From NCBI RefSeq assembly GCF_031583065.1, contig NZ_CP134053.1, positions 372,001 through 436,000 on the forward strand: a stretch of DNA of 64,000 nucleotides. The letters run 5' to 3'. The notes beneath the pieces were generated by a model. It worked only from the letters and a program-made list of their open reading frames with translations, had not been told where the DNA came from and did not search any database. This document shows, piece by piece, positions 12,468 through 36,492 of this stretch. This stretch comes from Streptomyces sp. CGMCC 4.7035 (GTDB taxonomy: Bacteria; Actinomycetota; Actinomycetes; Streptomycetales; Streptomycetaceae). Each line of letters begins with the position of its first letter. Position 1 is the stretch's first letter. Both the position numbers and the translations under genes were made by a program.

Positions 12468-12541
12468 GCCGCCTTAGCTCAGATGGCCAGAGCAACGCAC
12501 TCGTAATGCGTAGGTCTCGGGTTCGAATCCCGAAGGCGGCT
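12468..12541 (+). tRNA. tRNA-Thr(CGT)
   Basis: A 74-base cloverleaf: acceptor GCCGCCT / AGGCGGC with discriminator T, D-arm AGCTCAGATGGCCAGAGC, anticodon arm ACGCA-CTCGTAA-TGCGT giving anticodon CGT (Thr), and T-arm TCGGG-TTCGAAT-CCCGA. CCA is not encoded. Everything from the anticodon loop to the 3' end lies within the 45-bp repeat shared with position 29847, so the mobile element restored an intact tRNA when it inserted. Confidence 0.95.
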
Positions 12542-12544
12542 CCG
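12500..12544 (+). repeat. attL: 45-bp direct repeat overlapping tRNA-Thr
   Basis: The 45 bases from the anticodon loop of tRNA-Thr to 3 bases past its end are identical to 29847-29891. This is the core region for integrase-mediated recombination. Confidence 0.9.
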
Positions 12545-12669: not shown

Positions 12670-14271
12670 CTACTTCCTGGGCTTCTTCCGCTTGTCCTTC
12701 TTCTTGGCCCTGGCCTCGGCTTTCGCCTTGTCCTTGGCCTTCTTGGCGGCCTTACGGGCCTCCTCCGCCGCGGTCTTCCGCTGAAGCGGGACCAGCTTGG
12801 CGGTGGCCTCGGCCGCGTTCTTGCCGACCTGCGGCAGGACGCTCTGGTAAATGTCCCGCGTGATCCGGGTGTCGCTGTGCCCGAGCGTGTCCGACACGAT
12901 CTTCACGTCGATGCCGGCGGCGAGCATGAGCGTGGCCGCGCCGTGGCGGAGGTCGTGCAGCCGGATCGGCGGGAGCCCGGAGGCGGCGACGAGGCGCTCG
13001 AAGAGGTCGGTCACCTTGCCCGGATGGAGCCAGGAGGCGTCTTCCTGGGTGAAGACCATGCCTGTCTCGACCCAGGCTGATCCCCACTCCTCGCGGTCCG
13101 CGTCCTGCTGTTCGCGGTGTCGCTTCAGGACGCTGACGGTGTCGTCGTCGAGCGCGACCACGCGGAAGCCGCTGTCCGTCTTGGGCTCGGAGGTCTCGAC
13201 CTCCCACCCGTCCTGGACGAGCTGGGCGGAGACGGTCAGGGAGTGGTCATCGAGGTTGGTCTCCGACCAGGGCTGCCCGCATGCCTCGCCCCGCCGCAGG
13301 CCGCGGAAGGCGATCAGGTGCCACATCGCGTACAGCCGGTCGTCCGCGACGAAGTCGAGGAATGTGCCGGTCTGTTCGGGCGTCCAGACCATCACGGGCG
13401 AGGGCTTCTCGCCCGTCTGCTCCCACTTGGCGACCCGCGCGTCCGTCCACACCAGAGCCTTTGGCTTGCGCACGGGGTCGAGTTCGACGTGCGCGGCCGG
13501 GTTGAAGGTGAGGATCTGCTGGCCGATCGCGTCGTTCAGCGCGGCCCGCAGCGTGGCCTTGATGCGCAGCCGCGTGGCCGGGCCGGTCACACGCCGGAAC
13601 GGGGGCATGGCGTCGATCGCCGTCTTCATCGCCTTGCGGCGGGCGCGGTTGTCCGTGCCCTTCCACGGCACGGTGGCCAGCTCCTCGACTGCGGCCCGGC
13701 GCTGGGCGTTTTGCTCCAGGATCTCGGCGTTGGCGTCGGCGATGGCCGTGAACATGTCGCTGAGGTGGCTCACGCGCAGGCGGTCGAGGCGGTGGTGGCC
13801 GATCCGGGGCTTCAAGTGGAAGCGGATATCGGTCTCGTAGCGGTTGAGTCCCGACTTGCGGATGCGCTTGCCGTCGAGCCATCGGTCGAGCCACTCACTG
13901 ACGGTCAGGCGGCCGATCAGGTCCTGACCGGACTTCAGGCGCCGCCGGGTCTCCTCGACATCCGGCAGCGGCGACTTCTCGTCGCCGACCTCCTCCAGCA
14001 TGGCGGCGATCAGCGCCATGCCCTCGGGGTCGTCGGTGTCGGCGAGGCCGAGCAGGGCGCGCACGTGGTCGAGGTCGGCCTGGGCCGCCTTGAGGGACTC
14101 GTAGCCGGCGCGGCTGAAGGAGCGGCGGGTGCCGTCTTCGCGGGGCGGGAGCTCCTGGCGTATGGAGTACGAGCCGTGCTTGCGGCTGGAGAGCTTGGGG
14201 CATTTCTTGCCGAGCGGCTTGCCGGTGTGGGGGTCGCGGCAGTAGCAGCGGCGGTGGGTGGAACCCTTCAA
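12670..14271 (-). CDS. int: Site-specific tyrosine integrase
   Basis: Tyrosine recombinase of 533 residues that integrates and excises the element at tRNA-Thr. The N-terminal Cys/His-rich stretch (RRCYCRDPHTGKPLGKKC) is common in actinobacterial integrases. A SAM-like core-binding domain lies at about 120-290 and the catalytic domain at about 295-490. Catalytic residues can be read as Arg326 (GLRRGEA), Lys364, His439 and Arg442 (LHDLRHG), His465 (LGHS) and nucleophile Tyr475 (DIYQS). A lysine-rich tail follows. Its ATG overlaps the stop of the upstream XRE gene (ATGA), so the two are translationally coupled. The gene end is about 125 bases from attL. Confidence 0.95.
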   Translation of the reverse strand: MKGSTHRRCYCRDPHTGKPLGKKCPKLSSRKHGSYSIRQELPPREDGTRRSFSRAGYESLKAAQADLDHVRALLGLADTDDPEGMALIAAMLEEVGDEKSPLPDVEETRRRLKSGQDLIGRLTVSEWLDRWLDGKRIRKSGLNRYETDIRFHLKPRIGHHRLDRLRVSHLSDMFTAIADANAEILEQNAQRRAAVEELATVPWKGTDNRARRKAMKTAIDAMPPFRRVTGPATRLRIKATLRAALNDAIGQQILTFNPAAHVELDPVRKPKALVWTDARVAKWEQTGEKPSPVMVWTPEQTGTFLDFVADDRLYAMWHLIAFRGLRRGEACGQPWSETNLDDHSLTVSAQLVQDGWEVETSEPKTDSGFRVVALDDDTVSVLKRHREQQDADREEWGSAWVETGMVFTQEDASWLHPGKVTDLFERLVAASGLPPIRLHDLRHGAATLMLAAGIDVKIVSDTLGHSDTRITRDIYQSVLPQVGKNAAEATAKLVPLQRKTAAEEARKAAKKAKDKAKAEARAKKKDKRKKPRK

Positions 14272-14948
14272 AGATCATTCTCCTCGGTGGTGTCGCCGAC
14301 GTGCGGGTCGACGTCGGCGAGTTCGGGCGGCAGCAGGGGTGGCGTGCCGCCGTCTTCGCGGATGAAGGCGCGGGCGCTGCGGAGCCGGTACTTGGCTTCC
14401 AACACCCGTTCGGCGTAGTCGGCTTGGGCGAGTACGGCTTCCTCGCGTTCGGCCTGGTTGGGTGCCGTCTCGGCTTTCCAGCGCTCGTGCTTCTCGCCTT
14501 TCAGAGCAGCCAGGGCGGCGCGCTGGTGGCGGACGTGGGCGCGGAAGGAACGGAGCATGTCGTCTTCCATGCCGAAGTCCTCCCTGTCGCCGGTGAACCA
14601 GCGCATGGCGTCCCAGGTCGGTTCGGAGTCCTGCAGGGGAAGGCGCTGGACTCTGTCGACGTAGCCCACGGGGTACAGCAGGCAGATCGGGTAGGTCCGC
14701 AGTGCTTCGGCGAGGACGAGGACCTCGACCAGGGGCAGGGTCGCGCGGCGTCCGGACTCCATGTTGGCGATCACGTTGCGCGGGATCGGGTAGCCGATCT
14801 CCTCGCATCTGTCGGCCAGGTCCTGGGCGCTCATGCGCAGCTCCTTCCTTCGTCTACGGACCTCAGCGGCCACGGTGGCCATCACCTGGTCGGCCCACTC
14901 GGGGACGTCGTCCTCGTCCCTTCCAGCATCGAAACCGTGTTGTGTCAT
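14268..14948 (-). CDS. XRE-family regulator coupled to integrase
   Basis: 226 residues. The helix-turn-helix domain at about 25-90 (RRRRKELRMSAQDLADRCEE...IPRNVIANMESGRRA) is of the Cro/CI type. The C-terminal part, rich in Glu, Arg and Trp, has no recognised fold. It overlaps the integrase gene by 4 bases and is transcribed divergently from the excisionase-like gene. A 6-bp inverted repeat spans its own start codon. This is the usual place for a repressor that controls integration, excision and transfer, and that role is inferred. Confidence 0.8.
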   Translation of the reverse strand: MTQHGFDAGRDEDDVPEWADQVMATVAAEVRRRRKELRMSAQDLADRCEEIGYPIPRNVIANMESGRRATLPLVEVLVLAEALRTYPICLLYPVGYVDRVQRLPLQDSEPTWDAMRWFTGDREDFGMEDDMLRSFRAHVRHQRAALAALKGEKHERWKAETAPNQAEREEAVLAQADYAERVLEAKYRLRSARAFIREDGGTPPLLPPELADVDPHVGDTTEENDL

Positions 14949-15043: not shown

Positions 15044-15274
15044 ATGCGCAACAACGAGAGCGCCGAGCAGCCCAAGGGCATGACGCGGGAGGAGCTGCTG
15101 GCCCTGCCCGCCGCCGTTGACCTGGACACTGGAAACCGGGCGCTGGGTCTGGGGCGGAGCAAGGGCTACGAGCTGGCCAAGCGCGGCGCGTACCCGTGCA
15201 AGGTCCTGCGGCTGGGCAAGGCGTACCGCGTCGTGACCGCAGACCTGTTGAACCTGCTCGGCCTGGCCGCATGA
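15044..15274 (+). CDS. xis: Excisionase-like helix-turn-helix protein
   Basis: 76 residues with a single winged-helix-like DNA-binding motif (ALGLGRSKGYELAKRGAYPCKVLRLGKAYRVVTADLL split over residues about 34-72), as in excisionase/MerR-like small proteins encoded next to actinobacterial integrases. The ATG at 15044 follows a GAACGGAGC ribosome site. It is divergent from the XRE-integrase operon. It probably directs the integrase toward excision; it could instead be a transcription factor. Confidence 0.75.
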   Translation: MRNNESAEQPKGMTREELLALPAAVDLDTGNRALGLGRSKGYELAKRGAYPCKVLRLGKAYRVVTADLLNLLGLAA

Positions 15275-15387
15275 CCGCGTGTGCCCATAGCAGACGCTTC
15301 TGCGCTGAGCTGACACAGAAACGCTGGACTGTGGCCAGGCGTGGACGTACTGTCCGTGGTCCCTCGCCCCGGCCAAGGAAGCGAGAA

Positions 15388-15415
15388 AGCCCCCGGCGGG
15401 CCAACGCCGGAGGCT
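15388..15415 (+). terminator. Hairpin between xis and the ATPase gene
   Basis: Inverted repeat AGCCCCCGGCG / CGCCGGAGGCT with one mismatch, in the 227-base gap. It may end or attenuate the xis transcript. Nothing else is evident in this gap. Confidence 0.4.
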
Positions 15416-15501
15416 CAGCACACTCCACTGCCCGCATTCCAACGAACGACCTGCGCGACCCGGGCCTGCATGCCCGAAGCCGCCGGATAAGGAGCTGCCC
15501 T

Positions 15502-16794
15502 GTGCAACCTACGACACCCGAGCCGCATTCCGCAGCCGGCAAGGCGGTATGGCCGACGGTCGCGGTGCCTGGCAAGCCCGGCCACCACGCGCCCGAAGCC
15601 GCCCCGGTTGCCGACGACAGGGCACCGGACCCGATACCGGCGGATCAGCCCGCCGAGGAGGCGGTGCCGGACCCAGAGCCGACAACGTACGGCTCCGAGC
15701 TGTTGAACGAACTACGTGCACAGATAGCCCGGTTCGTGATCCTGCCCTCACCGGAGGCGCTGGACGCGGTCACGCTGTGGGTGGCGGCGACGCACCTGCA
15801 GCCCGCGTGGCAACACGCCCCGCGCCTGGCGGTGGTCGGACCGGCGAAGCGGTGCGGTAAGTCACGGCTCCTGGACGTGCTCACCGAGACGGTCCACGAG
15901 CCGATGCTCACCATCAACACCACCCCTGCGGCGGTCTTCCGCTCCATCACTACCGACGAACCGCCCACCCTGCTCGTGGACGAGGCCGACACCATCTTCG
16001 GCACCCCGAAGATGGCGGAGAAGAACGAGGAGATGCGCGGCCTGCTCAACGCCGGTCACCAGCGCAACCGCTATGTCACCCGCGTCGTCGGCAACGACCA
16101 CACGCCCCACAAGTTCGCCACCTTCGCCATGGCCGCCCTGGCCGGGATCGGCGACCTTCCCGACACGATCATGGACCGGTCCGTGGTCATCCGCATGCGC
16201 CGCCGGGCCGAGGGCGAGCACGTCAAGCCCTTCCGCTCCCGCCGCGACATCCCAGCCCTCCACGACCTGCGCGACCGCATCGCCGCATGGGCCAGGCCCC
16301 TTCTCGATGAGGCCGCCGACCTGGAACCGGAGATGCCGGTGGAGGACCGGGCCGCCGACACCTGGGAACCCCTGGTGATCGTCGCCGACCTCGCCGCCGG
16401 GCCCTGGCCCCGCCTCGTCCGCGCGGCATGCGCGCAGATGGTCACCGACGAGGCCCAGGCCGAGGAGGACCACCCCAGCGGAGCGCGGATCCTGGCCGAC
16501 ATCCGCCGGGTCTTCGTCGCCCAGCGCGAGGTCGACAGCCTCTCCACGGACGAGCTCCTCCACCACCTGCGCCAAGACCCGGAAAGCCCTTGGGCGGAGT
16601 GGGGGCGCAGCGGGCTGAGCCCCCGTGACCTCGGCTCAATGTTGCGCGACTTCGGCATCAAGTCCGGCAACGTCCGCCTCGCCGACGGCACCCAGCGCAA
16701 GGGTTACACGCGCAACAAGTTCCTCGACGCGTGGCGCCGTTACTGCCCGACCGTCCACCCGGTTTACGCCGAGCCCGCCCGCAGCGAGGGCTGA
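15502..16794 (+). CDS. DUF3631 P-loop ATPase (candidate replication protein)
   Basis: 430 residues. The GTG start at 15502 follows an AAGGAG ribosome site; the open frame runs further upstream, but only this start has a ribosome site. A Pro/Ala-rich N-terminus of about 60 residues precedes an ATPase core with Walker A GPAKRCGKSRLLD and Walker B TLLVDEADTIF. The DUF3631 C-terminal half follows, ending in SPRDLGSMLRDFGIKSGN...KGYTRNKF. Members of this family occur in phages and integrative elements of actinomycetes and are presumed to act in element replication. The iteron-rich stretch just downstream fits that, but a direct role is not shown by sequence. Confidence 0.8.
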   Translation: MQPTTPEPHSAAGKAVWPTVAVPGKPGHHAPEAAPVADDRAPDPIPADQPAEEAVPDPEPTTYGSELLNELRAQIARFVILPSPEALDAVTLWVAATHLQPAWQHAPRLAVVGPAKRCGKSRLLDVLTETVHEPMLTINTTPAAVFRSITTDEPPTLLVDEADTIFGTPKMAEKNEEMRGLLNAGHQRNRYVTRVVGNDHTPHKFATFAMAALAGIGDLPDTIMDRSVVIRMRRRAEGEHVKPFRSRRDIPALHDLRDRIAAWARPLLDEAADLEPEMPVEDRAADTWEPLVIVADLAAGPWPRLVRAACAQMVTDEAQAEEDHPSGARILADIRRVFVAQREVDSLSTDELLHHLRQDPESPWAEWGRSGLSPRDLGSMLRDFGIKSGNVRLADGTQRKGYTRNKFLDAWRRYCPTVHPVYAEPARSEG

Positions 16795-16813: not shown

Positions 16814-17159
16814 TTGCCGTCCTTGCCGTCCCTGCCGTAATGGCGCAGGTCAAACGGCATGAGGGCAAGACGGCAGCCGGGGCCAAGACGGCAACACGAT
16901 CATGACCGTCGTGCTGCCCGCCAGGACGCCGCCCAGATCCGTCTTGTGGCGTCCCGGGCGTCCCCGCCGTATCGGCGCAGGTCACGGCGCACGCCGCCGG
17001 GACGGAAGACGGATTCGATCCGTCGACGCCCATCGAGCCGCAGCCCTCACGGCCTATGCGGGCCGCCGAGACGCGACGGCACCGCCAAGACGGAACGCCG
17101 ACGCCCCTGCCGTACCGGCTCTGACCTGCGCTTGCAACGGCCAAGACGGCAAAGACGGA
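16814..17159. repeat. Iteron-like non-coding region (candidate ori or oriT)
   Basis: A 392-base gap without a convincing gene. TTGCCGTC occurs at 16814 and 16823, with its inverse GACGGCAA or CAAGACGGCA at 16866, 16884 and 17142. GCGCAGGTCA occurs at 16843 and 16975 and inverted (TGACCTGCGC) at 17122. The last two thirds are low in start codons and dense in GACG/CGTC steps. Such clustered direct and inverted short repeats next to an ATPase and transfer genes suggest an origin of replication or transfer. Confidence 0.45.
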
Positions 17160-17186
17160 CCACGCCACCACCGCAGGAGACCCCGC

Positions 17187-17984
17187 TTGACCAACCTCTC
17201 CACACCCACCTACCGGGACCACCGCCCTGGCGAAGGGCGGTCGATGATGACCAAGCAGGCTGCCGAGCGGTACGCGCTCGTCGCCGCAGGTGCCGTCATC
17301 GTGGCCCTGACCGCCGGCGGCTTCTGGCTGTCGTACGCGCACCTCGCCGAGGTCGCCGGACAGCACGGGCTTTACAGCTCTCCCGCCCGCCGCTGGGCCT
17401 GGCCCGCGACCCTGGACGCCTTCATCGTCGCCGGTGAACTGCTCATGCTCCGCGCGGGCCTGCGCCGCGTCACCGACGGATGGGCCATCGCCCTTACGGC
17501 CACCGGATCGGTCGGCTCCATCGCGCTCAATGTGGCCGGGGTCAGCGGCACGGGCAGCGCCGGCACCGTTCCCCTGCTCGACTACGTGGTCGCCGCGGTT
17601 CCCCCGACCGCCGCGCTGCTGGCCTTCGGTGTCCTGATGCGACAGATCCACCAGCTCGTTGACCGTCCGGTCGGCCATCCGGACGCCCCTTCCGAACAGC
17701 TCACTGACCCGCTGGCTGCTACGTCCGTCCAGCCGTCGGAACCACCGCCCGAGGTTTCGGAGAGCACGCCGCGCGGTGGCCGTCCGCCAAAGGCCACACT
17801 CGCAGAGCTCGTGGAGATCGGCCGGATTGCCCTCGCTGAGCACGGCACACTCAGCCGGTCTCTTCTCCGGAAGGCTGTCAAGGACAGGGACTTGACGATC
17901 GGCAGTGAGCGGCAGACCGAGGTGATGGAGATCCTCCGGCCCGAAATCGAAGCCACCGCCGAGACCGGTCCGGACAGCGGCTGA
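17187..17984 (+). CDS. DUF2637 membrane protein (transfer/spread-like)
   Basis: 265 residues. TTG 17187 is chosen because an AGGAG lies 7 bases upstream; ATG 17244 has no such site. There are four hydrophobic segments at about 28-48, 68-88, 95-118 and 125-145 (ALVAAGAVIVALTAGGFW; LDAFIVAGELLML; SIALNVAGV; VAAVPPTAALLAFGV). This is the DUF2637 pattern found in Streptomyces plasmid Spd-like and element-borne proteins. The C-terminal 100 residues are soluble, with a basic DNA-binding-like end. It may assist DNA transfer or plasmid spread in mycelium; this is inferred from context only. Confidence 0.75.
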   Translation: MTNLSTPTYRDHRPGEGRSMMTKQAAERYALVAAGAVIVALTAGGFWLSYAHLAEVAGQHGLYSSPARRWAWPATLDAFIVAGELLMLRAGLRRVTDGWAIALTATGSVGSIALNVAGVSGTGSAGTVPLLDYVVAAVPPTAALLAFGVLMRQIHQLVDRPVGHPDAPSEQLTDPLAATSVQPSEPPPEVSESTPRGGRPPKATLAELVEIGRIALAEHGTLSRSLLRKAVKDRDLTIGSERQTEVMEILRPEIEATAETGPDSG

Positions 17985-18135
17985 CCGGAATCCCTGCGGG
18001 GTGACCGGAACCCCTTCCGGTCACCCCGGCCGACGCCCCGCTTGTCCACACCCGTGGATTGCGTGCCGACCACCAGCACTCAGCCAGCCCTTGCCGCCGA
18101 CGCGCCTGCCTCGCCCCCCTTCTGGAGAACCGCCC

Positions 18136-18870
18136 GTGACGCACGCCCCGTACCGCCCCGACCCCACTCCCGACGAGCCGCCGCCTCATGCGAAGTCCCC
18201 TACGCTGATGGGGCGTTTGCGGCAGGCGTTCGGACGGGCTGCCCCGGGCGGAGCCAGTAGTACCCCGAGTCCGACTCAGGGCCGGACTTCGGGGGTCTCC
18301 GCCCCGGGGGTGGCGGAGATGGTCCAGCGCCAGGGGGCGCTGGACCAGAGGGTCGGGGGCGAGGGCGGCTCCGACCGGGACACTCTCCATGCCGTCCAGC
18401 GCGAAGTGCTCCACCCTGTCCGCGCCGCCGAGACCGTCGGCGGCGCGCCCACCGTGCAGATCGTGCAGCCCACGATCCGTCGCTTCACCGGCACCAAGCG
18501 CGTCGCCCGCGTCGGCCCCCTGCGCTTCACCGACGACGAGCACACCCAGCTTCAACAGACAGCCGCGGAACACGGCTACAAAGGCGACTCCGGCTTCGCC
18601 GCCGACATCGTTCTTGCCTTCCTCACCGGCCGGTTCACCGCCAACCTGCCCCTGTCCGAGGACCGCCGCCGCACCCACATCTTCCGCGCCCAGGTCCTGC
18701 GCCAGCTCAACCGGATCGGCGTCAACGTTAACCAGATCGCCCGCGCCCTCAACAGCGATCACACCCCACCCGACATCCGCCAGCGCCTCACCGAACTCCA
18801 CCACCTGCTGGAGCTGATCGCCGAAGCCCTGCGCCAGCCTGCTGACCCGGAGACGGAGGTGCCCGCGTGA
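18136..18870 (+). CDS. mobC: MobC-like relaxosome accessory protein
   Basis: 244 residues. GTG 18136 has GGAG 8 bases upstream. The N-terminal half is disordered (Pro/Ser/Gly). Residues about 130-235 hold the MobC signature: RVARVGPLRFTDDEHTQLQQ (ribbon-helix-helix-like DNA binding) and then HIFRAQVLRQLNRIGVNVNQIARALN. In mobilizable plasmids MobC binds near oriT and helps the relaxase melt DNA. Its stop overlaps the relaxase start (GTGA), so the pair is translationally coupled. Confidence 0.85.
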   Translation: MTHAPYRPDPTPDEPPPHAKSPTLMGRLRQAFGRAAPGGASSTPSPTQGRTSGVSAPGVAEMVQRQGALDQRVGGEGGSDRDTLHAVQREVLHPVRAAETVGGAPTVQIVQPTIRRFTGTKRVARVGPLRFTDDEHTQLQQTAAEHGYKGDSGFAADIVLAFLTGRFTANLPLSEDRRRTHIFRAQVLRQLNRIGVNVNQIARALNSDHTPPDIRQRLTELHHLLELIAEALRQPADPETEVPA

Positions 18871-20582
18871 TCGCCGCCATCAAACCGGCCGGGTCCAACA
18901 CCCGCGGCCTGCTCGCCTACCTCTACGGCCCCGGCCGCCAGGACGAACACCTCGATCCGCACATCGTGGCGGGCTTCGCGATGCTCGGCATGCCCGACCC
19001 CGGCCGCGATGAGAACGCCACCCTCACTGCACTCGCCCGCTACCTCGACGAACCGGTCCGGCTGCGCAACAGCGAGTTCGGCAAGAAGGTCACCGACCAC
19101 GTCTGGCACTGCCCCGTCCGTGCCGCCCCCGAAGACCGCCACCTCTCCGACACCGAATGGGGCGAGATCGCCCAGCGCATCGTCCAGGCGGCTGGCATCG
19201 CCCCCACGGGTGACGACCTCGCCTGCCGCTGGATCACCGTACGCCACGCCGACGACCACATCCACATCCTCGCCACCACCGTCCGCGAAGACGGCCGCCG
19301 CCCCAAACTCCACGACAGCGGCCTCCGCGTCGGCGACGCATGCCGCGAGATCGAAAAGGACTACGGACTGCGCCAGCTGAAGAAGGGCGACCGCACTGGC
19401 GCCCGCAGCCCCACCCAGGCCGAGATGCACAAGGCCGAACGCCTCGGCTGGGAACAGACCAGCCCCGAGTGGCTGCAGGACCGTATCCGCGCCGCCATCC
19501 CCCACGTGACCAACGCCGAGGAATTCCTGTCCTACCTGGAAGCCGACGGCATCGAGGTCAAGGCCCGGCGCGGCCCATCAGGCGACCTTCTGGGGTATGC
19601 GGTCGGCCGACCCGGCGACGTCAACGAGAACGGCGAGCAGATCTTCCACCCCGGAGGCAAGATCGCCCCCGGCCTCTCCCTGCCCAAAATCACCGCCCGC
19701 CTCGAATCCAGCCGGCCCGAAGAACACCCCACCGCCCGCCGCAACCGCGCCAGCACCCCCTGGCATCAAGCCGCCGACGCTCTCGACACCCTCCACGCCG
19801 ACCTCGCCGATGACACCCACGCCCAGGCCCACGTCAGCGCCCTCGGTGAACTGATCGAAGCGACCTCCCAGAAGGCACCCGCCAATCTGCGCGCCGAACT
19901 CCAGGCTGCCTCGAAGGCGTTCGCCCGGGCCCAGCGGTCCCAGGTCCGGGCGGAAGACCGCGCCGCCCACGCCCTGCGCAGCGCGGCACGCGACATCGTC
20001 CGCACCGCCACTGGCCCTGACGGTAGCGCGCTGGCCGCTCTGGTCGCAGCTCTGGTCTGGGCTGCCATCGTCGCTGGGCGCTGGCACGAAGCGAAGAGCC
20101 ATGCCCACCAGGCCGACGCCGCCCGCCAGACCGTCCGGCACCTCCAGATGGCCGCTGACCGCGCCCTCGCCCCGACACTCGCCGAACTCGCAGCCCGGCC
20201 GCCGAGGGAGGAAGCCCGTCGCGTTCTGGTCGGCGACGTACGGGCAGCCGTCCCCGACCACGCCGAACGGATATTCGCCGACCCGGCCTGGTTTGCGCTC
20301 GCCACCGTCCTCGCCGACGCCGAAGCCCGCGGCCACGAACCCCACCAGCTCCTCAAGGAAGCCGCTGCCCAACGCGAGCTGACCACCGCCCGTCAACCTG
20401 CCCGAGTCCTGATCACCCGCATCCAGCACACCGGCCGAAACCCGGCACCAAACCGCCGCGCCGAAGCCGCCCGCCGACGCTCGACCATGGCAAGCACGGT
20501 CCTCACGGAGCAGAGCCGCAACCCCCAGACCGCAGTAGCGGCGACGACACCCACCGAAAAGCAGCACCGACAGCGCCGGTAG
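18867..20582 (+). CDS. Relaxase/mobilization nuclease
   Basis: 571 residues. The N-terminal relaxase domain at about 1-200 carries the histidine triad HADDHIH (His127, His131, His133), which binds the metal, and tyrosines near the N-terminus (LLAYLYGPG) that could be the nicking residue. It would cut one strand at oriT and pilot it to a recipient. The C-terminal 350 residues are helical and Ala/Arg/His-rich, with a hydrophobic stretch near residue 392 (ALAALVAALVWAAIVAG). No helicase or primase motif is apparent. It is the last gene of the mobC operon. Confidence 0.88.
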   Translation: MIAAIKPAGSNTRGLLAYLYGPGRQDEHLDPHIVAGFAMLGMPDPGRDENATLTALARYLDEPVRLRNSEFGKKVTDHVWHCPVRAAPEDRHLSDTEWGEIAQRIVQAAGIAPTGDDLACRWITVRHADDHIHILATTVREDGRRPKLHDSGLRVGDACREIEKDYGLRQLKKGDRTGARSPTQAEMHKAERLGWEQTSPEWLQDRIRAAIPHVTNAEEFLSYLEADGIEVKARRGPSGDLLGYAVGRPGDVNENGEQIFHPGGKIAPGLSLPKITARLESSRPEEHPTARRNRASTPWHQAADALDTLHADLADDTHAQAHVSALGELIEATSQKAPANLRAELQAASKAFARAQRSQVRAEDRAAHALRSAARDIVRTATGPDGSALAALVAALVWAAIVAGRWHEAKSHAHQADAARQTVRHLQMAADRALAPTLAELAARPPREEARRVLVGDVRAAVPDHAERIFADPAWFALATVLADAEARGHEPHQLLKEAAAQRELTTARQPARVLITRIQHTGRNPAPNRRAEAARRRSTMASTVLTEQSRNPQTAVAATTPTEKQHRQRR

Positions 20583-20607: not shown

Positions 20608-20934
20608 TCACCGTTGCGCTTGGCCGCCGCCCTCCGACCTGGGGGTCTGGGGTTTGCGGTGCTTGCCGGTGCCGGAGCCGAGCGGCTTCGGCACCGGGCC
20701 TGCGGGCGGCGGCTCACTGGCTTCTGGGTACAGGATGGCCTTGGCCTCGGCCAAGTTGGAGGCGAACCCGTACGGCTCCCACACGTGCCCGTTCCAGCGC
20801 TCGATGGCGCGGGGTGCATCTGGGTTCAGATGGGATGCCCTGGGGCCGTCGCCGGAGACGACAGGCACGGCGCGAAGTCGGCCGATCTTCGCGTCGCGGC
20901 GTTCCGCCCAATCCCTCAGCGGCTCGTCGTCCAT
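20608..20934 (-). CDS. Small conserved protein (DUF6087-like)
   Basis: 108 residues, beginning MDDEPLRDWAERRDAKIGRLR, with a central RWNGHVWEPYGFASNLAEA stretch and a basic Pro-rich tail. It resembles the DUF6087 family of small Streptomyces proteins; the name is from memory. It starts 31 bases after the tgmC stop on the same strand, so it is probably the last gene of the graspetide operon. No catalytic motif is visible. A role in the pathway is possible but unproven. Confidence 0.65.
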   Translation of the reverse strand: MDDEPLRDWAERRDAKIGRLRAVPVVSGDGPRASHLNPDAPRAIERWNGHVWEPYGFASNLAEAKAILYPEASEPPPAGPVPKPLGSGTGKHRKPQTPRSEGGGQAQR

Positions 20935-20965
20935 CCGGGCCTTCCTCGCGTCTGCGGCGGCTGTC

Positions 20966-22153
20966 TCAGGAGGGTAGCGGCCACTGCGGGCCGTTCGGAT
21001 TCCCGAGCCAGACGACCTGTTCGCCGCGGGAGACCGTCACACCGAACGCGGCGGTGCTCGGTGAGCCGTACTCCTCCCAGGTGCCCACCGCCGACTCGAC
21101 CGCTTCCCACAGGCGGCGCGGGCCACCTTGGCGGACCTGCCAGCCGTCGTCCGTAGGAGCCAGGACGGCGAAGGAATCGGTGACGCTGTCCAGCACGAAT
21201 GTGCTGGCTGGCCCGCCGTCGACCGCCATGGAGAAGGAGCGGGCGTCCGGCGCCGCGAGCTGAGCCATGAAGGCCGGACCGGAGCTGCTGAGGACCTCTG
21301 GGCCGTACGTTGCCTTCCGCGTCGTTCCGTCGTCGGGCGCCGGAATCATGCCGAGGCTCTCCGGCGCGTCCTGCTGGCGGGCGATCATGAAGCTCGGATC
21401 GTCCTCGCTGAACCAGCCGCTCGCGCTGTCTCCAGTCACGATGAGTTTGACCAGGCCGAGGGAGCGCATCCAGCCGCGCAGGGTGGTGAGGATGACGCCG
21501 CCTGGCTGCACCTGGTTCAGCCAGGCGGGCGGGATGTTGCGGAAGCCGCATGTGGCGATCAGCCGGTCGTACGGGGCTCCGTCTGGGTGGCCGGCGCGGC
21601 CGTCCCCCACCAACAGCCGAGGGGTGTATCCGGCTGTGGTGAGAGCCTCGCGGGCGCGACGGGCCACGCCGTCGTCCGTCTCGATCGAGGCCACGCGCTC
21701 GCTGCCGAGCCGGTGGCACATGAGTGCTGTGGAGTAGCCAGTGCCGGTGCCGATCTCCAGGATGTTCATGCCGTCCTGCACGTCGAGGTCTTCGAGCATC
21801 CGAACCACGAGGCTCGGCAAGGTCGACGACGAGGTGGGGGCGGCATTGCTGATGGGCTTCGGGTCGGCCCAGTCGATGTCCCGGCTGTCGAACTGGGTCA
21901 TCCATGTCTCGTCGGTGTAGACGAGACGGAGCCACTCCTCCTGGCCGGCGGTTTCCGGTGTGACTGGCTCCCAGGTGGTGACGCCGGGAGTGTTGCTCTC
22001 CCGGTAGAACCGAGGGACGAACAGGTGGCGAGGAGTGGCCTCGACGGCGGCACGCCAGGCCGGCGACCGCAGCCAGCCGTCCTCCTGTAGTTGTCCGGCG
22101 AGGCGGCGCCGTAGATCGACCGCGACCGTCTCGATATCGGTCTCACTGGCCAC
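20966..22153 (-). CDS. tgmC: Protein-isoaspartate-methyltransferase-like RiPP enzyme
   Basis: 395 residues. Residues about 30-230 match protein-L-isoaspartate O-methyltransferase: LFVPRFYRE, the substrate-loop-like NAAPTSSSTLPSLVVRMLE (about 103-121), SAM motif I ILEIGTGTGYS (131-141) and acidic motif II SIETDD. A C-terminal extension of about 150 residues is absent from repair PIMTs. This is the layout of the methyltransferase that accompanies actinobacterial ATP-grasp peptide maturases. Related enzymes in fuscimiditide-type graspetides methylate a core Asp, which then closes to an aspartimide. The GTG start overlaps the end of tgmB by 11 bases. Confidence 0.88.
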   Translation of the reverse strand: MASETDIETVAVDLRRRLAGQLQEDGWLRSPAWRAAVEATPRHLFVPRFYRESNTPGVTTWEPVTPETAGQEEWLRLVYTDETWMTQFDSRDIDWADPKPISNAAPTSSSTLPSLVVRMLEDLDVQDGMNILEIGTGTGYSTALMCHRLGSERVASIETDDGVARRAREALTTAGYTPRLLVGDGRAGHPDGAPYDRLIATCGFRNIPPAWLNQVQPGGVILTTLRGWMRSLGLVKLIVTGDSASGWFSEDDPSFMIARQQDAPESLGMIPAPDDGTTRKATYGPEVLSSSGPAFMAQLAAPDARSFSMAVDGGPASTFVLDSVTDSFAVLAPTDDGWQVRQGGPRRLWEAVESAVGTWEEYGSPSTAAFGVTVSRGEQVVWLGNPNGPQWPLPS

Positions 22154-23114
22154 GGATGCCTCCTTCCAGGAGATCGGCGAGTGCGGCGGTCATAGGCAGA
22201 CCTGTCGGCGGCTCCATCCATGCCCACTGTCCGGAAGGATTGCACTCGATGAAGATCCACTCGCCGGAGTCGGTCAGAGCGAAGTCGAATGCTCCGAAGA
22301 CGAGCCCGAAGTGCTTCAGGTAGGCACGCATAGACCGCTCCACCGTTGGCGGCGCGGCAAGCGGCGTGTAGGTGTGCGTGTTGTAGTCCGTCCGCCAGTC
22401 GAGGAGGCCGGAGTCGATTCGTACGGCGAAGATCTGATCGCCGATGACCGTGACGCGGACGTCGGCGACCTTGTGCACGCACTGCTGGAACAGGTGCATG
22501 GTGCCGGTGACGGAGTCGTCGATCTCGTCGACGGTCACCTCGGTCACCGGCACGGTCCGGGCCTTGCCGTCGACCAGATAGAGCGGCACCGAGATCGACT
22601 TGAAGATGACGGTGCCGTGCTCCTTGATGAAGGCCCGCGCGTCGTGGGGAACGTTGGTGATCAAGGTCGGCGGCACTGTGAAGCCGACCGCCGCTGCTGC
22701 CGCTAGCCCGGCGGGCTTGTATTCGGCGTCGCCAATGCGGTTGGGGTGGTTGACGTAGAGGCAGCCGGGCAGAGAGGTCAGGATGCCGCCGAGGCCGTAG
22801 CGGGCCTGAGCCACGGCGAACCGTTCGTCCTGCCTGTCGAGGTGGGGGAACGCAAACCCGGAGGGGCGCCGGTAGTACACGGACCGCACGGCACCCAGCT
22901 CGGCACGTCGGCTCGGGGTCTGCACGCTTCCCCGCCAGCTGTCGGTGCCGCCGATGGCGGCCGAGCACGACAGCGTGGCGGGGAAGTCACCGGAGTCGAA
23001 CCGCACGACCGGGACACCCCGGTCGTGCAGCTCGGCGATCACGAAGTCCGCGGTCGGGTCGTCGAGGTTGGTGACGACCAGGACCGGATGATCGTTGTTC
23101 GTCACCAGAGTCAC
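22143..23114 (-). CDS. tgmB: ATP-grasp graspetide ligase
   Basis: 323 residues of the SAV_5884-like ATP-grasp peptide maturase family. A pre-ATP-grasp domain (about 1-110, with VYYRRPS at 79-85) is followed by CLYVNHPNRIGDAEYKP (118-134). Lys133 and Lys172 (VIFKS) are probably ATP-binding. The metal-binding end is at about 275-298 (FGAFDFALTDSGEW, FIECNPSGQWAW; Asp277, Glu290, Asn292). Such enzymes phosphorylate Asp/Glu side chains of a precursor core and join them to Ser/Thr or Lys as macrolactones or macrolactams. Its GTG start overlaps the tgmA stop by 4 bases. Confidence 0.92.
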   Translation of the reverse strand: MTLVTNNDHPVLVVTNLDDPTADFVIAELHDRGVPVVRFDSGDFPATLSCSAAIGGTDSWRGSVQTPSRRAELGAVRSVYYRRPSGFAFPHLDRQDERFAVAQARYGLGGILTSLPGCLYVNHPNRIGDAEYKPAGLAAAAAVGFTVPPTLITNVPHDARAFIKEHGTVIFKSISVPLYLVDGKARTVPVTEVTVDEIDDSVTGTMHLFQQCVHKVADVRVTVIGDQIFAVRIDSGLLDWRTDYNTHTYTPLAAPPTVERSMRAYLKHFGLVFGAFDFALTDSGEWIFIECNPSGQWAWMEPPTGLPMTAALADLLEGGIRGQ

Positions 23115-23416
23115 TGGTCGGTGTCGTTCCCCGTGTCGCTGTCGGGGGCGTCACCGCCGGCGCGGTCTCCCTGCCCCGTGGTGCCGGTCGCGGGGTTGGT
23201 GCCGGAGGACGTGCCGTGGCCCGGGGACATGGTGGGTGCCCCCGAGGCGTCGAAGTACCGGGCGGTCTGCGTCTCCGGGTCCAGCTTCACCGCCGCGTAG
23301 TCCGGGCCCTCGACGGGCGGGTACGGGGCGAGACGCCGCAGCCCCCATGGAGCTGCGGTCAGGTGTCCTTGCGGCAGCGGGCTGCCGGTGGGGAAGCGAT
23401 CCATGTAGTTGAACAC
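23111..23416 (-). CDS. tgmA: Graspetide precursor peptide
   Basis: 101 residues. GTG 23416 has AGGAAGG 6 bases upstream. The leader carries the family motif PWGLRRLAPYP (residues 23-33), the presumed recognition site for the ATP-grasp ligase, then TARYFDASGAP (51-61). The core-like C-terminus splits into a Thr/Ser-rich half (Thr69, Ser70, Ser71, Thr73, Thr77, Thr79, Thr80) and an Asp-rich half (Asp84, 89, 92, 94, 98, 100). Acceptor hydroxyls first and carboxylates second is the layout expected for ester-linked graspetides. It has no lysine, cysteine or aromatic residue after residue 54. It is the first gene of tgmABC. Confidence 0.9.
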   Translation of the reverse strand: MFNYMDRFPTGSPLPQGHLTAAPWGLRRLAPYPPVEGPDYAAVKLDPETQTARYFDASGAPTMSPGHGTSSGTNPATGTTGQGDRAGGDAPDSDTGNDTDQ

Positions 23417-23507
23417 GGTTTTCCTTCCTGTCGGAAGTTCATGTCCTTCGATGTGACTTGCTCACCCGCTTAGGCGCGTCCGGGACAGAGCCGCCCGAGC
23501 GGGGGTC

Positions 23508-23879
23508 TCATGGGCGCCGGAGGCGCCAAGGTTGCGTCGGAACTGAGTCGAGGCGCCGCAGTCCGTCGAGGACTCGGTGGAGAAGACTGACGTCCGCTGG
23601 ACGCGCCTCTACGGCCAGCCGGCCGTCGCCGTACCAGTGGCCGAGCTGCCGCTGCCACGTGTTCTCGGCACGCTGTGCCTCCACGCGGATCTCTCCGAGC
23701 GCCAGACCCGATTCGACGTGGAGTCGCAGTAGATCGACCGGAGTTATGCGGAGAGGTTCCGGCACTGCCGCTGCGTCAGGCACGGGGCCGAAGGCGAGCT
23801 CTACGCACGCGTCCGGGCGAGGGTGGTCGATGAGCTCCTCCGAGGACATGAGCCGTAAGACCACGCGCGGAGTCAGCAC
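23508..23879 (-). CDS. Small protein of unknown function
   Basis: 123 residues if started at GTG 23879, which overlaps the end of the ATP-binding-protein gene by 7 bases; the longer open frame upstream lies inside that gene and is not needed. The sequence (VVLRLMSSEELIDHP, then ITPVDLLRLHVESGL, then RQLGHWYGDGRLAVEARPADVSLL) looks like a compact alpha/beta domain with no recognised motif. It ends 91 bases before tgmA on the same strand and may belong to the same transcript. Confidence 0.6.
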   Translation of the reverse strand: MLTPRVVLRLMSSEELIDHPRPDACVELAFGPVPDAAAVPEPLRITPVDLLRLHVESGLALGEIRVEAQRAENTWQRQLGHWYGDGRLAVEARPADVSLLHRVLDGLRRLDSVPTQPWRLRRP

Positions 23880-24289
23880 GAGGCCGGCACCCGCAGCTCG
23901 GCCCAGACGAGCTTTCCCCAGCGATGCAGGTCGTAGCCCCATCGCCAGCTCAGTGACTCCACGAGGAGAAGACCACGACCGTCCTCCGAGTCGTCGTCGG
24001 GGTCGGCCGGCTCGGGAGTGGCACGGCACTTGTCTGCGACGCCGATCCGAACCACCTCAGCCGTCTCGCGTCGAATCACCACTCGGACCACGCGACACCG
24101 CGTGTGATTGACGGCGTTGGTGATCAGCTCCGACACGACCAGAGTCCCAGCCTCTGCCAGCTCGCCTATGCCCCAAGTATTCAGAGCGGCGGAGACAAGC
24201 AGGCGTGCGCGGCGCGCGGATTCCGGTTCGCACGGCACGGTCTCGGTGTAGCCCGGAATGCCTGTCGCTGTTGGTTTGGCGGCTGTCAT
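23873..24289 (-). CDS. Anti-sigma-factor-like ATP-binding protein
   Basis: 138 residues from ATG 24289. It is a GHKL/HATPase domain of the RsbW/SpoIIAB type: N-box VVSELITNAVNHTRC, G1-like RIGVADKC and G2 SEDGRGLLLVESLSWRWGYD. It has the WGKLVWAEL end common to the many small Streptomyces proteins of this family. Such proteins bind and inhibit sigma factors or act as phospho-switch kinases. It is divergent from the XRE/TPR regulator and upstream of the graspetide genes, so a control role in the cluster is plausible. Confidence 0.85.
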   Translation of the reverse strand: MTAAKPTATGIPGYTETVPCEPESARRARLLVSAALNTWGIGELAEAGTLVVSELITNAVNHTRCRVVRVVIRRETAEVVRIGVADKCRATPEPADPDDDSEDGRGLLLVESLSWRWGYDLHRWGKLVWAELRVPASC

Positions 24290-24546
24290 GGTCACGGGGT
24301 CATCCCTCCGAGGCTGGGACGCCCGCCCCCGCGACGGGGTGCGCCGGGGCGGGCTCTCCTCCAGGCCGTCGTGGGGCAGGTAGGGGGAACCTCGCCCGCT
24401 CAACGGCTGATACCGAGTCAACGACCTTTAGCCGACGAGGAACAGGAAAGGTCGCGCCCCACCCGCCTGCGGAGAACCGGAAGACTTTACGCTTCGGTGA
24501 CCTGGGGTCTGGATCGGTCAGTGCACGCGGGGATACGGTCGGTTCC

Positions 24547-25800
24547 ATGGGAGCGAACGCCGTCCTCAAGAGCTTGATGGAGGAACTCGGGTTCACCCAG
24601 GACGAATTGGCTGCTCGGATGAATGCTGCGCTCGCAGAGATCACCGGTCGGCCTGGCGACGTCTCCTCGCGCACAGTGCGCAATCTCCTGAACGGAACGT
24701 CCCGTCGACCCATCGGGCGCACGTGCGCAGCCTTAGAGCGGGTGTTCGACTGCCCTGTCGAGGACTTAGGGTTCAGCGCACCACGCACCATGCAACATCC
24801 GCAGGAGGACCCCGTGCGGCGTCGCACCTTCCTCGGCTCGGCGACCGGTGCCGCAGCCACCGCTGTTCCGTTGGTGGCTCAGCGCCGTACGGTCGGTATG
24901 TCGGACGTGGCCAGGGTTGCCGCCGGCGTGAACGCCCTTGTCGAAGCCGACGACCGCCAGGGCGGCCACGCGGCGTTGGAGAAGGCCGCCGTGCAGGGCC
25001 GCAACAAGGTACTTGAACTACAGCAGCGCAACGCCGGCGAACGCGTCCGCCGGGCGCTGTACGCGCTGGCTGCCGAGTACACCACTATCGCCGCCTGGTC
25101 GTGCATCGACGTCCGTAACCTCGACCAGGCCCAGGGCTACCTGAACGAATCGGCGACGTTCGCCGGCCTCTCGCAGGACGGCCCGACCGAGATGCGTGTG
25201 TGGGTAAACCTCTCGATGCTCGCCTACCAGCGGCAGAACTGGCCGGAGGCACTGGCAGCGGCACAGGCCGCGCAAGCCTCCTCGGCGGCTCGTCACGACC
25301 CGTTCTTCGACTCGCTGGGTCGGGTCCGCGTCGCCCTCGCGTACGCAGCTCTCGGTGACGGACGGGCCGGATTGCGGTCCCTCGGATTGGCCCAGGACAC
25401 CTTCATCAAGGTGGCGGAGTGCGAGCGCCCGCGCTGGACAGCGTTCTATGGCCAGGCCGAACTTGACCACCTGGCCGCGATCGTCCAGTTCAACAGCGGA
25501 CGCCACGCCCACGCAGAAGCCATGGCCCACCGCGCGCTGGCAAGGATTCCGAGTGCCTTCCGGCGTAACCGGGCACTTGCCACCGCTCAGCTCGCCCTTG
25601 CCCAACTCCACCAGGGAGAAGCCGAACGGGGCACGGCCACAGCCACCGCCGTGTTCACGATCATGGACGCCGACCCTCTGCCCGGCCGCATGCGCACCCT
25701 CATCGGTGACTTCCACCGCGGGCTGTTCACCATGGCCCCCTCCACCTCCTACGCACGAGACTGGGCAGACCGCATGCGAACCGAATGGAGTCGAGCGTGA
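24547..25800 (+). CDS. XRE-family regulator with TPR-like C-terminus
   Basis: 417 residues. The N-terminal helix-turn-helix (about 1-70; LMEELGFTQDELAARMNAALAE...VRNLLNGTS) is followed by a twin-Arg-like RRRTFLGSATGAAATA stretch. A helical repeat region at about 120-410, with spaced Ala/Leu helices, resembles tetratricopeptide repeats. Proteins of this build often sense peptides or small molecules. It is the first gene of an operon with GNAT and NUDIX genes and is divergent from the ATP-binding protein and tgmABC; it may regulate both sides of the 257-base intergenic gap. Confidence 0.82.
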   Translation: MGANAVLKSLMEELGFTQDELAARMNAALAEITGRPGDVSSRTVRNLLNGTSRRPIGRTCAALERVFDCPVEDLGFSAPRTMQHPQEDPVRRRTFLGSATGAAATAVPLVAQRRTVGMSDVARVAAGVNALVEADDRQGGHAALEKAAVQGRNKVLELQQRNAGERVRRALYALAAEYTTIAAWSCIDVRNLDQAQGYLNESATFAGLSQDGPTEMRVWVNLSMLAYQRQNWPEALAAAQAAQASSAARHDPFFDSLGRVRVALAYAALGDGRAGLRSLGLAQDTFIKVAECERPRWTAFYGQAELDHLAAIVQFNSGRHAHAEAMAHRALARIPSAFRRNRALATAQLALAQLHQGEAERGTATATAVFTIMDADPLPGRMRTLIGDFHRGLFTMAPSTSYARDWADRMRTEWSRA

Positions 25801-26315
25801 CCGACCTGCGTCACTTCCAGCACGGAGACCTCTCCGAAGGCTTCCGGCAGATGCTCATCGACGTACATGCCGACGCCTACGCCGACCAGATGGACGACCC
25901 CTTCCATCAGCGTTTCGCCTGGTTCGTCGACCATTGGTCGGGCATGGAGGGCTTCTCCTGCGTGGTGGCGTACGACGCCGACGAACCGGTCGGCTTCGCC
26001 TACGGCGCACCACTCGCCCCCGGCCGCGAGTGGTGGCGCTCCACCAGCTACGAGCCGAACAACGGCTACACCTCCACCTACGCCGTGTCCGAGGTCATGG
26101 TGCGCCCACGCTGGCGCAAGCAGGGCATCTCCGCACGACTCCACGAAGCGCTGCTGAAAGAACGCACGGAAGACCTCGCCGTACTCCTGGTCGACGTCAC
26201 GCACCCGAAGGTGCAGGCACTCTATGAGTTGTGGGGGTACGTAAAGGCCGGCGAGCAGCAGCCGTTCGCCGACTCGCCGGTATACGCGGTCATGATCAGG
26301 GACCTGCGGACGTGA
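25797..26315 (+). CDS. GNAT-family N-acetyltransferase
   Basis: 172 residues from GTG 25797, which overlaps the regulator stop as GTGA. The acetyl-CoA-binding fold is visible: VSEVMVRPRWRKQGISARLHEALL (motif A with R/Q-x-x-G-x-A/S) and then LLVDVTHPKVQALYELWGYVKAGEQ (motif B). The acceptor is unknown. In microviridin clusters a GNAT enzyme acetylates the peptide N-terminus, so a tailoring role for the neighbouring graspetide is possible but only by analogy. Confidence 0.85.
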   Translation: MTDLRHFQHGDLSEGFRQMLIDVHADAYADQMDDPFHQRFAWFVDHWSGMEGFSCVVAYDADEPVGFAYGAPLAPGREWWRSTSYEPNNGYTSTYAVSEVMVRPRWRKQGISARLHEALLKERTEDLAVLLVDVTHPKVQALYELWGYVKAGEQQPFADSPVYAVMIRDLRT

Positions 26316-26803
26316 GCGTTCGCCAGCAGTCCAAAGGGCTGAAGCCTGCCCTCGGATCCATGACACTCCTGGTCGCCGCCGTCATTGTCCATGACAAGGG
26401 AACCAACCGCGTCGTCCTCCTCCAGCGCAGCCAGAACGCCAAGTTCGCCCAGGGCATGTGGGACCTCCCCGTCGGCAAGAGCGAACCCGGCGAACCCATC
26501 ACCGAGACCGCGGTGCGCGAGCTGTACGAGGAGACCGGCCTGATCGTGAAGCCGGAGGCCCTGAAGGTCGCCCACATCATTCATGGTGCCTGGGGCGTAG
26601 AAGCTCCCAACGGCTTTCTCACCGTGGTCTTCGCCGCCGATGAATGGACCGGAGAACCCAAAAACCTCGAACCACGTAAGCACGACCAGGTCTGCTGGGT
26701 CGACGCTGACGCTATCCCCGAGGGGTTCGTTGACACCACGGCAAGCGCCCTCCGCCGGTACCTCACAGGCGGTTCGGAGGTTTCCCTCGATGGTTGGCGG
26801 TAG
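26312..26803 (+). CDS. NUDIX hydrolase
   Basis: 163 residues from GTG 26312, again a GTGA overlap with the gene before. The full Nudix box is present: GKSEPGE, then PITETAV, then RELYEETGLI. These enzymes split nucleoside diphosphates linked to another group. It is the third gene of the XRE-GNAT-NUDIX operon. The substrate is unknown. Confidence 0.88.
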   Translation: MSVRQQSKGLKPALGSMTLLVAAVIVHDKGTNRVVLLQRSQNAKFAQGMWDLPVGKSEPGEPITETAVRELYEETGLIVKPEALKVAHIIHGAWGVEAPNGFLTVVFAADEWTGEPKNLEPRKHDQVCWVDADAIPEGFVDTTASALRRYLTGGSEVSLDGWR

Positions 26804-29846: not shown

Positions 29847-29891
29847 CTCGTAATGCGTAGGTCTCGGGTTCGAATCCCGAAGGCGGCTCCG
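29847..29891 (+). repeat. attR: 45-bp direct repeat (tRNA-Thr 3' half remnant)
   Basis: Identical to 12500-12544. It lacks the 5' half of a tRNA, so it is a remnant created by integration. Confidence 0.9.
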
Positions 29892-29894
29892 AGA

Positions 29895-29931
29895 AACCCC
29901 AGGTCAGATAGTCGCTGACCTGGGGTTTTTG
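29895..29931 (+). terminator. Original tRNA-Thr terminator
   Basis: Stem AACCCCAGGTCAG / CTGACCTGGGGTT followed by TTTTT. This is probably the host tRNA's own terminator, displaced 17 kb by the insertion. Confidence 0.6.
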
Positions 29932-29954
29932 TTGCTCGCTCAATTGAACGGCGA

Positions 29955-32366: not shown

Positions 32367-32429
32367 GGGTGCTCCTCGGCCCGGGGATCCGGCGGGTGAC
32401 TGCTCGCCGGGTACCCCACCCCAAGCACA

Positions 32430-36215
<3,786 letters not shown>

Positions 36216-36492
36216 CTCCGCTCCCGCCGTACTGATCCGCCACCGGCCCACCGGCCGGAAAGCTGTCTGGAGGTTGCGGCCCTCGGCCCGCCCGGAGGCT
36301 GCCCGGCGGTCGCCCCGTCGTTTCCAGTGTGCCGCCGACGAGGAGCGTACGGCGGCCGGTCTGCTCGACGGTGCGGCGGAAGCCCTCCACGTCGCACGCG
36401 TTGATCTCGTCGTCACGCTGGACGTACGTCGCCCGGGGCGCGGTCTCGAACACCTCAGGAATCAGCGGGCCGTTCGCTGAGCGGTTCTTCTC

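Follow-up and report, generated by a model that had tools for sequence, protein, structure and literature searches.

A graspimiditide gene cassette probably carried by an integrative mobilizable element of Streptomyces

The cassette and its surrounding element

A stretch of 64,000 nucleotides from Streptomyces sp. CGMCC 4.7035 (contig NZ_CP134053.1, positions 372,001 to 436,000; hereafter the window) was analyzed for a gene cluster of a ribosomally synthesized and post-translationally modified peptide (RiPP), which a preliminary description had proposed to be a graspetide cluster on a mobilizable element. The cassette is composed of six genes, encoding a HATPase protein, a 123-residue protein, TgmA, TgmB, TgmC, and a DUF6087 protein. 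It is flanked by a relaxase gene, 25 bases from the DUF6087 gene, and by the XRE/GNAT/NUDIX genes (24547-26803, forward strand), and this previously described placement was borne out by coordinates and Pfam matches. The features of the cassette and its regulatory flank are listed below.

20608-20934, reverse strand: DUF6087 protein, a recurrent methyltransferase companion (PF19565, 118 bits, cut-off 27.1)
20966-22153, reverse strand: tgmC, RiPP PIMT/PAMT methyltransferase of 395 aa (TIGR04188, 442 bits, cut-off 380)
22143-23114, reverse strand: tgmB, ATP-grasp graspetide synthetase (TIGR04187, 428 bits, cut-off 350; PDB relatives 9bou, 5ig9, and others)
23111-23416, reverse strand: tgmA, precursor (TIGR04186, 71.4 bits, cut-off 25; PF14408 (Actino_peptide), 45.1 bits, cut-off 25)
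23508-23879, reverse strand: 123-residue protein, almost confined to the close subclade
23873-24295, reverse strand: HATPase_c_2 (anti-sigma-like) protein (PF13581)
24296-24546, no strand: divergent promoter region, in which a 21-locus alignment shows GCGTAAAGTCTTCC, TTTCCTGTTC, and GTTGACT as conserved blocks
24547-25800, forward strand: XRE helix-turn-helix and TPR regulator of the NsdA family (NF053720, 295 bits, cut-off 75; PF01381, 25.6 bits, cut-off 23)
25785-26315, forward strand: GNAT acetyltransferase (PF00583)
26231-26803, forward strand: NUDIX hydrolase (PF00293, 74.2 bits)

The cut-offs of TIGR04186, TIGR04187, and TIGR04188 were all exceeded, in agreement with the proposed kinship to the fuscimiditide and amycolimiditide clusters, and the TIGR04187 score places TgmB inside the graspetide clade. 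Against the MvdD and MvdC models TgmB scored 147 and 144 bits, both under their cut-offs, and the precursor TgmA had no match among PDB sequences. The overlaps of 4 bases between tgmA and tgmB (23111-23114) and of 11 bases between tgmB and tgmC (22143-22153) were exactly as first described. TgmC carries GTGTG (GxGxG) at residue 135, WEEYGSP (WxxxGxP) at residue 359, and an extra C-terminal domain. The downstream protein, initially called DUF6087-like, is a DUF6087 protein by its PF19565 match.

The HATPase_c_2 protein scored just 26.6 bits against NF041045 (cut-off 210), and its start is more likely near 24289-24295 than at the listed 24421, as judged from start-site reading and the 21-locus comparison. 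Similarly, the true start of the NUDIX gene is probably downstream of the GNAT stop. No Pfam or NCBIfam family matched the 123-residue protein at E<=0.01, and a word-limited protein-collection search gave 10 relatives at E<=0.001. Its AlphaFold model had a predicted local distance difference test score (pLDDT) of 66.7 and a predicted template modelling score (pTM) of 0.46.

Ratios of nonsynonymous to synonymous substitution rates (dN/dS), calculated against up to 12 loci, were 0.10-0.23 for TgmA, 0.14-0.21 for TgmB, 0.15-0.33 for TgmC, 0.15-0.24 for DUF6087, and 0.08-0.14 for the XRE regulator, except for a value of 0.54 against the divergent regulator of locus L083. The 123-residue protein (0.13-0.53) and the HATPase (0.10-0.51) evolve faster than the other parts. 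On these ratios the cassette looks intact and under purifying selection, and every part appears functional.

By its predicted enzymes, the cluster is classified as a group 13 graspetide (graspimiditide) cluster, a new member of a known group rather than a new type of system. The earlier expectation of a new graspetide therefore held for the member and not for the system type, as more than 1300 group 13 clusters are counted in a recent account (PMC13001092). Fuscimiditide, amycolimiditide, albusimiditide, and SsfA(BM) share with the window the A-B-M gene trio and the same ATP-grasp family, and the PIMT C-terminal domain, the WxxxGxP motif, a Thr/Asp stem (predicted for the window), and the loop Asp are likewise common to graspimiditides and the window. 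In contrast to the characterised graspimiditides, the window peptide has Arg rather than Gly after the loop Asp, its cassette is apparently carried on a mobilizable element, and a DUF6087 protein, the 123-residue protein, and an XRE/TPR-HATPase module are attached. The mobile and exchangeable setting, the Asp-Arg loop, and the DUF6087 companion are what is new here.

The surrounding element includes the following features.

12468-12543, forward strand: tRNA-Thr(CGT), the integration site (ARAGORN)
12500-12544, no strand: attachment (att) copy at the tRNA end, an exact 45-bp repeat matching 29847-29891
12670-14271, reverse strand: tyrosine integrase, type W (PF00589, 66.5 bits)
14268-14948, reverse strand: helix-turn-helix protein adjoining the integrase (weak PF13560 match, below cut-off)
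15196-16794, forward strand: DUF3631 backbone protein (PF12307, 248.8 bits)
16902-17984, forward strand: DUF2637 backbone protein (PF10935)
18001-18870, forward strand: MobC-like relaxosome protein (PF05713, 36.8 bits, cut-off 23.2)
18867-20582, forward strand: MobA-type relaxase, convergent with the cassette (PF03432, 40.3 bits, cut-off 24.6)
29847-29891, no strand: att copy at the far element end, an exact repeat of 12500-12544

The 45-bp direct repeats enclose 17.35 kb with the integrase, helix-turn-helix, DUF3631, DUF2637, MobC, relaxase, cassette, and XRE-GNAT-NUDIX genes. The suggestion of a tRNA-targeting element was thus upheld by the tRNA-Thr(CGT) gene, the exact repeat, and the tyrosine integrase. 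An integrase acting on a tRNA gene, att repeats, and MobC/MobA proteins are shared with actinomycete integrative and conjugative elements (AICEs) and integrative mobilizable elements. An AICE proper is defined by an FtsK-like translocase. Among the element open reading frames (ORFs) scanned against Pfam, some small ones being outside the scan, neither an FtsK/TraB-like protein nor another transfer ATPase was detected. With its predicted integrase and relaxase and with att repeats at a tRNA gene, the element is therefore best named an integrative mobilizable element, whose movement should need help.

The precursor peptide and its predicted chemistry

The core of TgmA starts at about residue 66 (PGHGTSSGTNPATGTTGQGDRAGGDAPDSDTGNDTDQ), with stem residues T69, T73, T77, T79 and D92, D94, D98, D100, and with loop Asp sites at D84-R85 and D89-A90. 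The pattern HGTS[ST]GTxPxTxT-loop-DxDxxxDxDQ (Thr4/Asp4) was found in 55 of the 57 precursors whose TgmB is at least 60% identical to that of the window, and the other two appear frame-broken there. Residues 80-91 place 12 residues between T79 and D92, and the same count, for which the pairing is inferred, ranged from 8 to 16 across the 55 precursors; loops of 10-12 residues are given for known graspimiditides (PMC12291112). The first loop Asp is followed by Gly in 28 precursors, by Arg in 26, and by Thr in one. In the subclade of the window the Thr4/Asp4 pattern of the stem does not vary, and the loop carries Asp-Arg. D84-Arg aligns with the Asp-Gly position of relatives, and a further loop Asp of the Asp-Arg precursors precedes Ser, Ala, or, in one case, Asp.

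From the Thr4/Asp4 pattern, four nested side-chain esters (T79-D92, T77-D94, T73-D98, and T69-D100) are inferred. TgmB would use ATP to form these esters, with a mass change of -72 Da (a fifth is possible, giving -90 Da), and the esters would make a stem closed by a loop of 12 residues. TgmC would methylate one loop Asp, most likely D84 before Arg85, and the methylated Asp would lose methanol to give an aspartimide, with a possible hydrolysis to isoAsp. Among characterised cores, SsfA of Streptomyces sp. F-3, rather than fuscimiditide, appears to come closest: SsfA is described as a precursor of about 100 residues with four Asp in its C-terminal 12, as in the window, and a modified loop Asp upstream, as predicted for the window, although SsfA is modified at the Asp of Asp-Gly-Asn where the window has Asp-Arg (PMC10787088). 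Five esters are given there for SsfA, so that four or five would be expected for the window peptide.

The modification may have a different fate or site, whereby the loop Asp ends as isoAsp, the outcome reported for SsfA, and not as a persistent aspartimide, or whereby D89 is targeted instead of D84. This is a tentative possibility with roughly one chance in three. The exact number of four Asp in the C-terminal 12 residues matches SsfA (PMC10787088), and the second loop Asp of the Asp-Arg precursors offers an alternative site. However, D84-Arg occupies the Asp-Gly position of relatives, and hydrolysis behavior of the loop Asp cannot be told from sequence. In the main reading the predicted product is an aspartimide, most likely at D84, and the Asp-Arg loop would probe the Gly dependence of PIMT-driven imide formation.

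The same genome includes a second tgm cluster away from the element (L001; G000:C1:6981155-6983226), with a TgmB about 50% identical and a core of the Asp-Ser type, KHGTSTGTETSTSTNLDSQNDQGHDQDSQQD.

Companion genes across related loci

A set of 97 loci (37, 59, and the window) was reduced to 84 distinct loci by the removal of 13 duplicates, and was divided by TgmB identity to the window into 20 loci at >=83% (hereafter close loci) and 64 lower loci, of which 38 were at 60-83% and 26 at <60%. The TgmB family is ordinary in Streptomyces, as tgmB was found at E<=1e-60 in 162 of 392 genomes. TgmA preceded TgmB in 82 of the 84 loci and TgmC followed it in 83; the conserved three-gene association that had been predicted for other genomes is thus present, and it is not due to chance.

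The DUF6087 gene was directly 3' of TgmC in 22/84 loci and nowhere else in the loci, with 15/20, 2/38, and 5/26 in the three identity classes from highest to lowest. The 123-residue protein was found in 18/84 loci (none elsewhere), 17 of them close loci. The HATPase was at the cassette in 36/84 loci (10 elsewhere in the loci) and the GNAT in 26/84 (one elsewhere), and the XRE/TPR gene was divergent upstream in 46/84 (three matches elsewhere in the same loci), with 18/20, 15/38, and 13/26 in the three classes. An association with ATP-grasp loci is on record for HATPase and HTH-DUF5753 proteins, mainly in the actinobacterial branch, and for TPR proteins (PMC8939145), and DUF397/DUF5753 are named as possibly co-occurring with group 13 graspetides (PMC13097080). 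The XRE/TPR and HATPase neighbors are conserved candidate regulators, with a linkage that is already published in part. Among the parts first proposed as additions to the described systems, DUF6087 and the 123-residue protein gained support; the HATPase, like the helix-turn-helix neighbor, is already counted among ATP-grasp-linked genes (PMC8939145).

DUF6087 extends beyond graspetide loci. It was found at E<=0.001 in 30 of 61 chosen genomes, and 19 of the 28 rows above 50 bits were directly 3' of a TIGR04188-type PIMT, 14 with TgmB (split in two frames in L154) and five without (L157-L161). A strict link to PIMTs was ruled out by the nine of 28 rows that had no PIMT neighbor (G101 by coordinates only), and a graspetide-specific role by the five of 19 PIMT-adjacent copies that lacked TgmB. 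By this distribution, DUF6087 is an accessory that accompanies RiPP methyltransferase clusters broadly, neither exclusively nor obligatorily. No paper on this companion of the methyltransferases was found in the open-licence literature. The five loci without TgmB have an XRE gene upstream in four cases and a PIMT in pieces in L161. They are possible pamtide-like clusters, since pamtides and imiditides have a PIMT without an ATP-grasp enzyme; in contrast, the window has a TgmB, which should act first.

The XRE/TPR protein would control the divergent promoter. Its predicted model (pLDDT 85.3) had a TPR fold by fold comparison, and its profile matched generic TPR and helix-turn-helix chains among PDB sequences, mostly with weak E-values. 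In bacilli, short peptides signal through the receptors Rap, NprR, and AimR. The window regulator resembles these RRNPP receptors in its XRE-type helix-turn-helix and TPR architecture and in its predicted TPR fold, but it is classed in the NsdA family. By this analogy the graspetide might be a peptide signal that is read by the divergent XRE/TPR protein and controls its own operon, perhaps also element transfer, which is considered unlikely. Slightly less probable still is the more specific version, in which the cross-linked, aspartimidylated peptide would be the receptor ligand that gates operon expression and transfer, as an actinomycete modified-peptide counterpart of the Rap-Phr and AimR systems that mobile elements of bacilli carry. 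If true, such a signalling loop would be the first biological role for graspimiditides. The preferred reading treats the XRE/TPR protein as a regulator of the divergent promoter.

An obligatory partnership between the cassette and the XRE/TPR regulator was rejected, as L012, L083, and L032 have other regulators yet nearly the same precursor core. Helix-turn-helix proteins outside the XRE profile were found on the upstream side in L012 (divergent) and in L024 and L036 (same strand as the operon). Additionally, in L168 (G058:C1:2726500-2737500) window-like XRE, HATPase, and DUF6087 genes surround a stretch without a detected tgm gene, as though those in between had been exchanged or had disappeared.

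Exchange of the cassette among element backbones

A tblastn search with five relaxases over the 84 loci showed that 15 of the 20 close loci have a relaxase or relic +1.9 to +5.5 kb away, convergent with the cassette. Nine were near full-length relaxases (the window, L033 in two frames, L012, L015, L013, L009, L080, L008, and L090) and six were relics (L029, L010, L011, L039 at E 4e-5, L075, and L092). No junction relaxase was found in the 64 loci below 83% TgmB identity, among which the L091 relaxase sits 10 kb off and the contigs of L025, L026, and L027 stop about 1-2 kb after TgmC.

Three relaxase types were distinguished: that of the window, type A (L033, L013, L090, L008, L009, and L080), and type B (L012 and L015). 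The window and type A loci are 87-91% identical in TgmB, 44-46% in the relaxase, and 44-56% in the DUF3631 protein. Within type A the identities are 87-96% for TgmB (omitting the L013/L080 pair, 81% over 472 positions, an overlong stop-to-stop ORF match), 70-95% for the relaxase, and 86-94% for the DUF3631 protein. The integrases fell into four types, namely the window, L033/L090/L009 (plus L011), L008/L080/L013, and L012/L015, and the window integrase shares only 22-25% identity with those of other cassette elements. In a DNA tree of tgmABC from the 20 close loci, type A, which had been defined by relaxase identity ahead of the tree, was divided between two supported clades, one of which was joined by the window and type B. 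A constraint of type A to one clade was rejected by the approximately unbiased (AU) test (p=2.2e-18). Taken with the relaxase and integrase types, this tree indicates that the cassette changes its backbone while it remains at the relaxase 3' end, and the tgm gene set itself seems to have been passed between elements as a unit. The horizontal spread postulated at the outset gained support from this test and from the contrast in junction relaxases (15/20 versus 0/64).

The att repeats bracket both the cassette and the relaxase in the window and in L013. In L013, L008, and L080 the site is tRNA-Arg(CCT) with repeats of 43-45 bases, in tandem copies in L008 and L080. Repeats without a tRNA gene were found in L009 (31 bases) and in L090 and L015 (22-23 bases), and no repeat of >=22 bases was found in six other 60-kb regions or in the shorter loci L033, L012, L021, L029, L011, L032, and L091. 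The tandem att copies at tRNA-Arg(CCT) in G069 (L136/L080/L137) and G196 (L148/L079/L149) suggest stacked elements around the same cassette.

A chance association, in which elements had merely landed near a chromosomal cluster, would fit the many tgm clusters away from relaxases (64/64 below 83% TgmB identity), but it is very improbable given the 15/20 close loci in which a relaxase or relic, always oriented alike, occupies this junction, the three relaxase types beside the cassette, and the cassette and relaxase enclosed by att repeats in the window and L013.

The reading that best accounts for these observations, with a probability of roughly 0.78, is that a group 13 graspetide cassette is the cargo of an integrative mobilizable element, with the chemistry and the spread proposed here. 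The modified peptide would be released by a leader protease and exported by functions of the host, the element would be spread by its tRNA-Thr integrase and its MobC/relaxase proteins with a helper conjugation system, and the cassette would be exchanged between backbones beside the relaxase 3' end.

Several observations weigh against this reading. Besides the undetected transfer ATPase, no protease, exporter, or clear self-protection gene was found among the element ORFs scanned against Pfam (the GNAT is a possible candidate for self-protection), so that production is not assured. Some relaxase relics are just 25-43 residues long, and no relaxase matter was found by tblastn in five of the 20 close loci (L014, L016, L083, L037, and L032). 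The DNA past the far att copy is not the ancestral flank, so no clean empty site for the element alone emerged from the relatives. Finally, Gly follows the modified Asp in all characterised graspimiditides, and the window has Arg85 instead; the four characterised products are all Asp-Gly, and Arg is named as a possible n+1 residue, so that Gly is not group-defining (PMC13001092).

Linking aspartimidylated peptides to function has been called "the bigger challenge" (Zhu and Link 2026 review, PMC13001092). That the cassette is kept by purifying selection and swapped among unrelated mobilizable backbones hints at a benefit of the peptide for the elements or their hosts, and backbone swapping gives natural gain/loss pairs for testing. 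The open-licence literature yielded no paper that connects graspetides with mobile elements, supplements being outside the search. The terms mobile, integrase, conjug, and plasmid are absent from the main text of PMC8939145. PMC11118758 deals broadly with mobile-element genes in the neighborhood of RiPPs, and the graspetide passages considered draw no such link. PMC12715929 is concerned with lanthipeptide genes in the vicinity of genetic-exchange genes, so that a RiPP location close to mobile genes has precedent.

In relatives G016 and G020, DNA matching the window from 37664 onward starts 2.2 and 1.1 kb past tRNA-Thr, and these two therefore lack an island of about 25 kb made up of the element and another insert. 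In relatives where both flanks match, among the matches listed, the right flank (from 29892) is placed apart from the tRNA-Thr flank, and the native right flank had no match in L172, L173, L176, and L177. These comparisons point to 29892 to about 37.6 kb as the further insert. The region 29892-37600 encodes an ANTAR/PAS/GAF-SpoIIE protein and a HAMP-rich hybrid histidine kinase.

More att-like copies were observed near tRNA-Thr in relatives such as G005 and G003, which makes this tRNA gene a possible hot spot of integration. The genome of the window has a further exact copy, 44 bases long, of the tRNA-Thr 3' end (G000:C1:6200507-6200550), perhaps the trace of a second element. Relatives of TgmB at E<=1e-30 are also encoded in 49 public plasmid records, 36 of them from Streptomyces, with a tgmB annotation on 16 of 20 rows among the matches listed. 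Additionally, the window encodes a SpoU-family RNA methyltransferase at 36556-37392, whose N-terminal part weakly matches the thiostrepton-resistance type (PF04705, 23.1 bits, cut-off 28.3).

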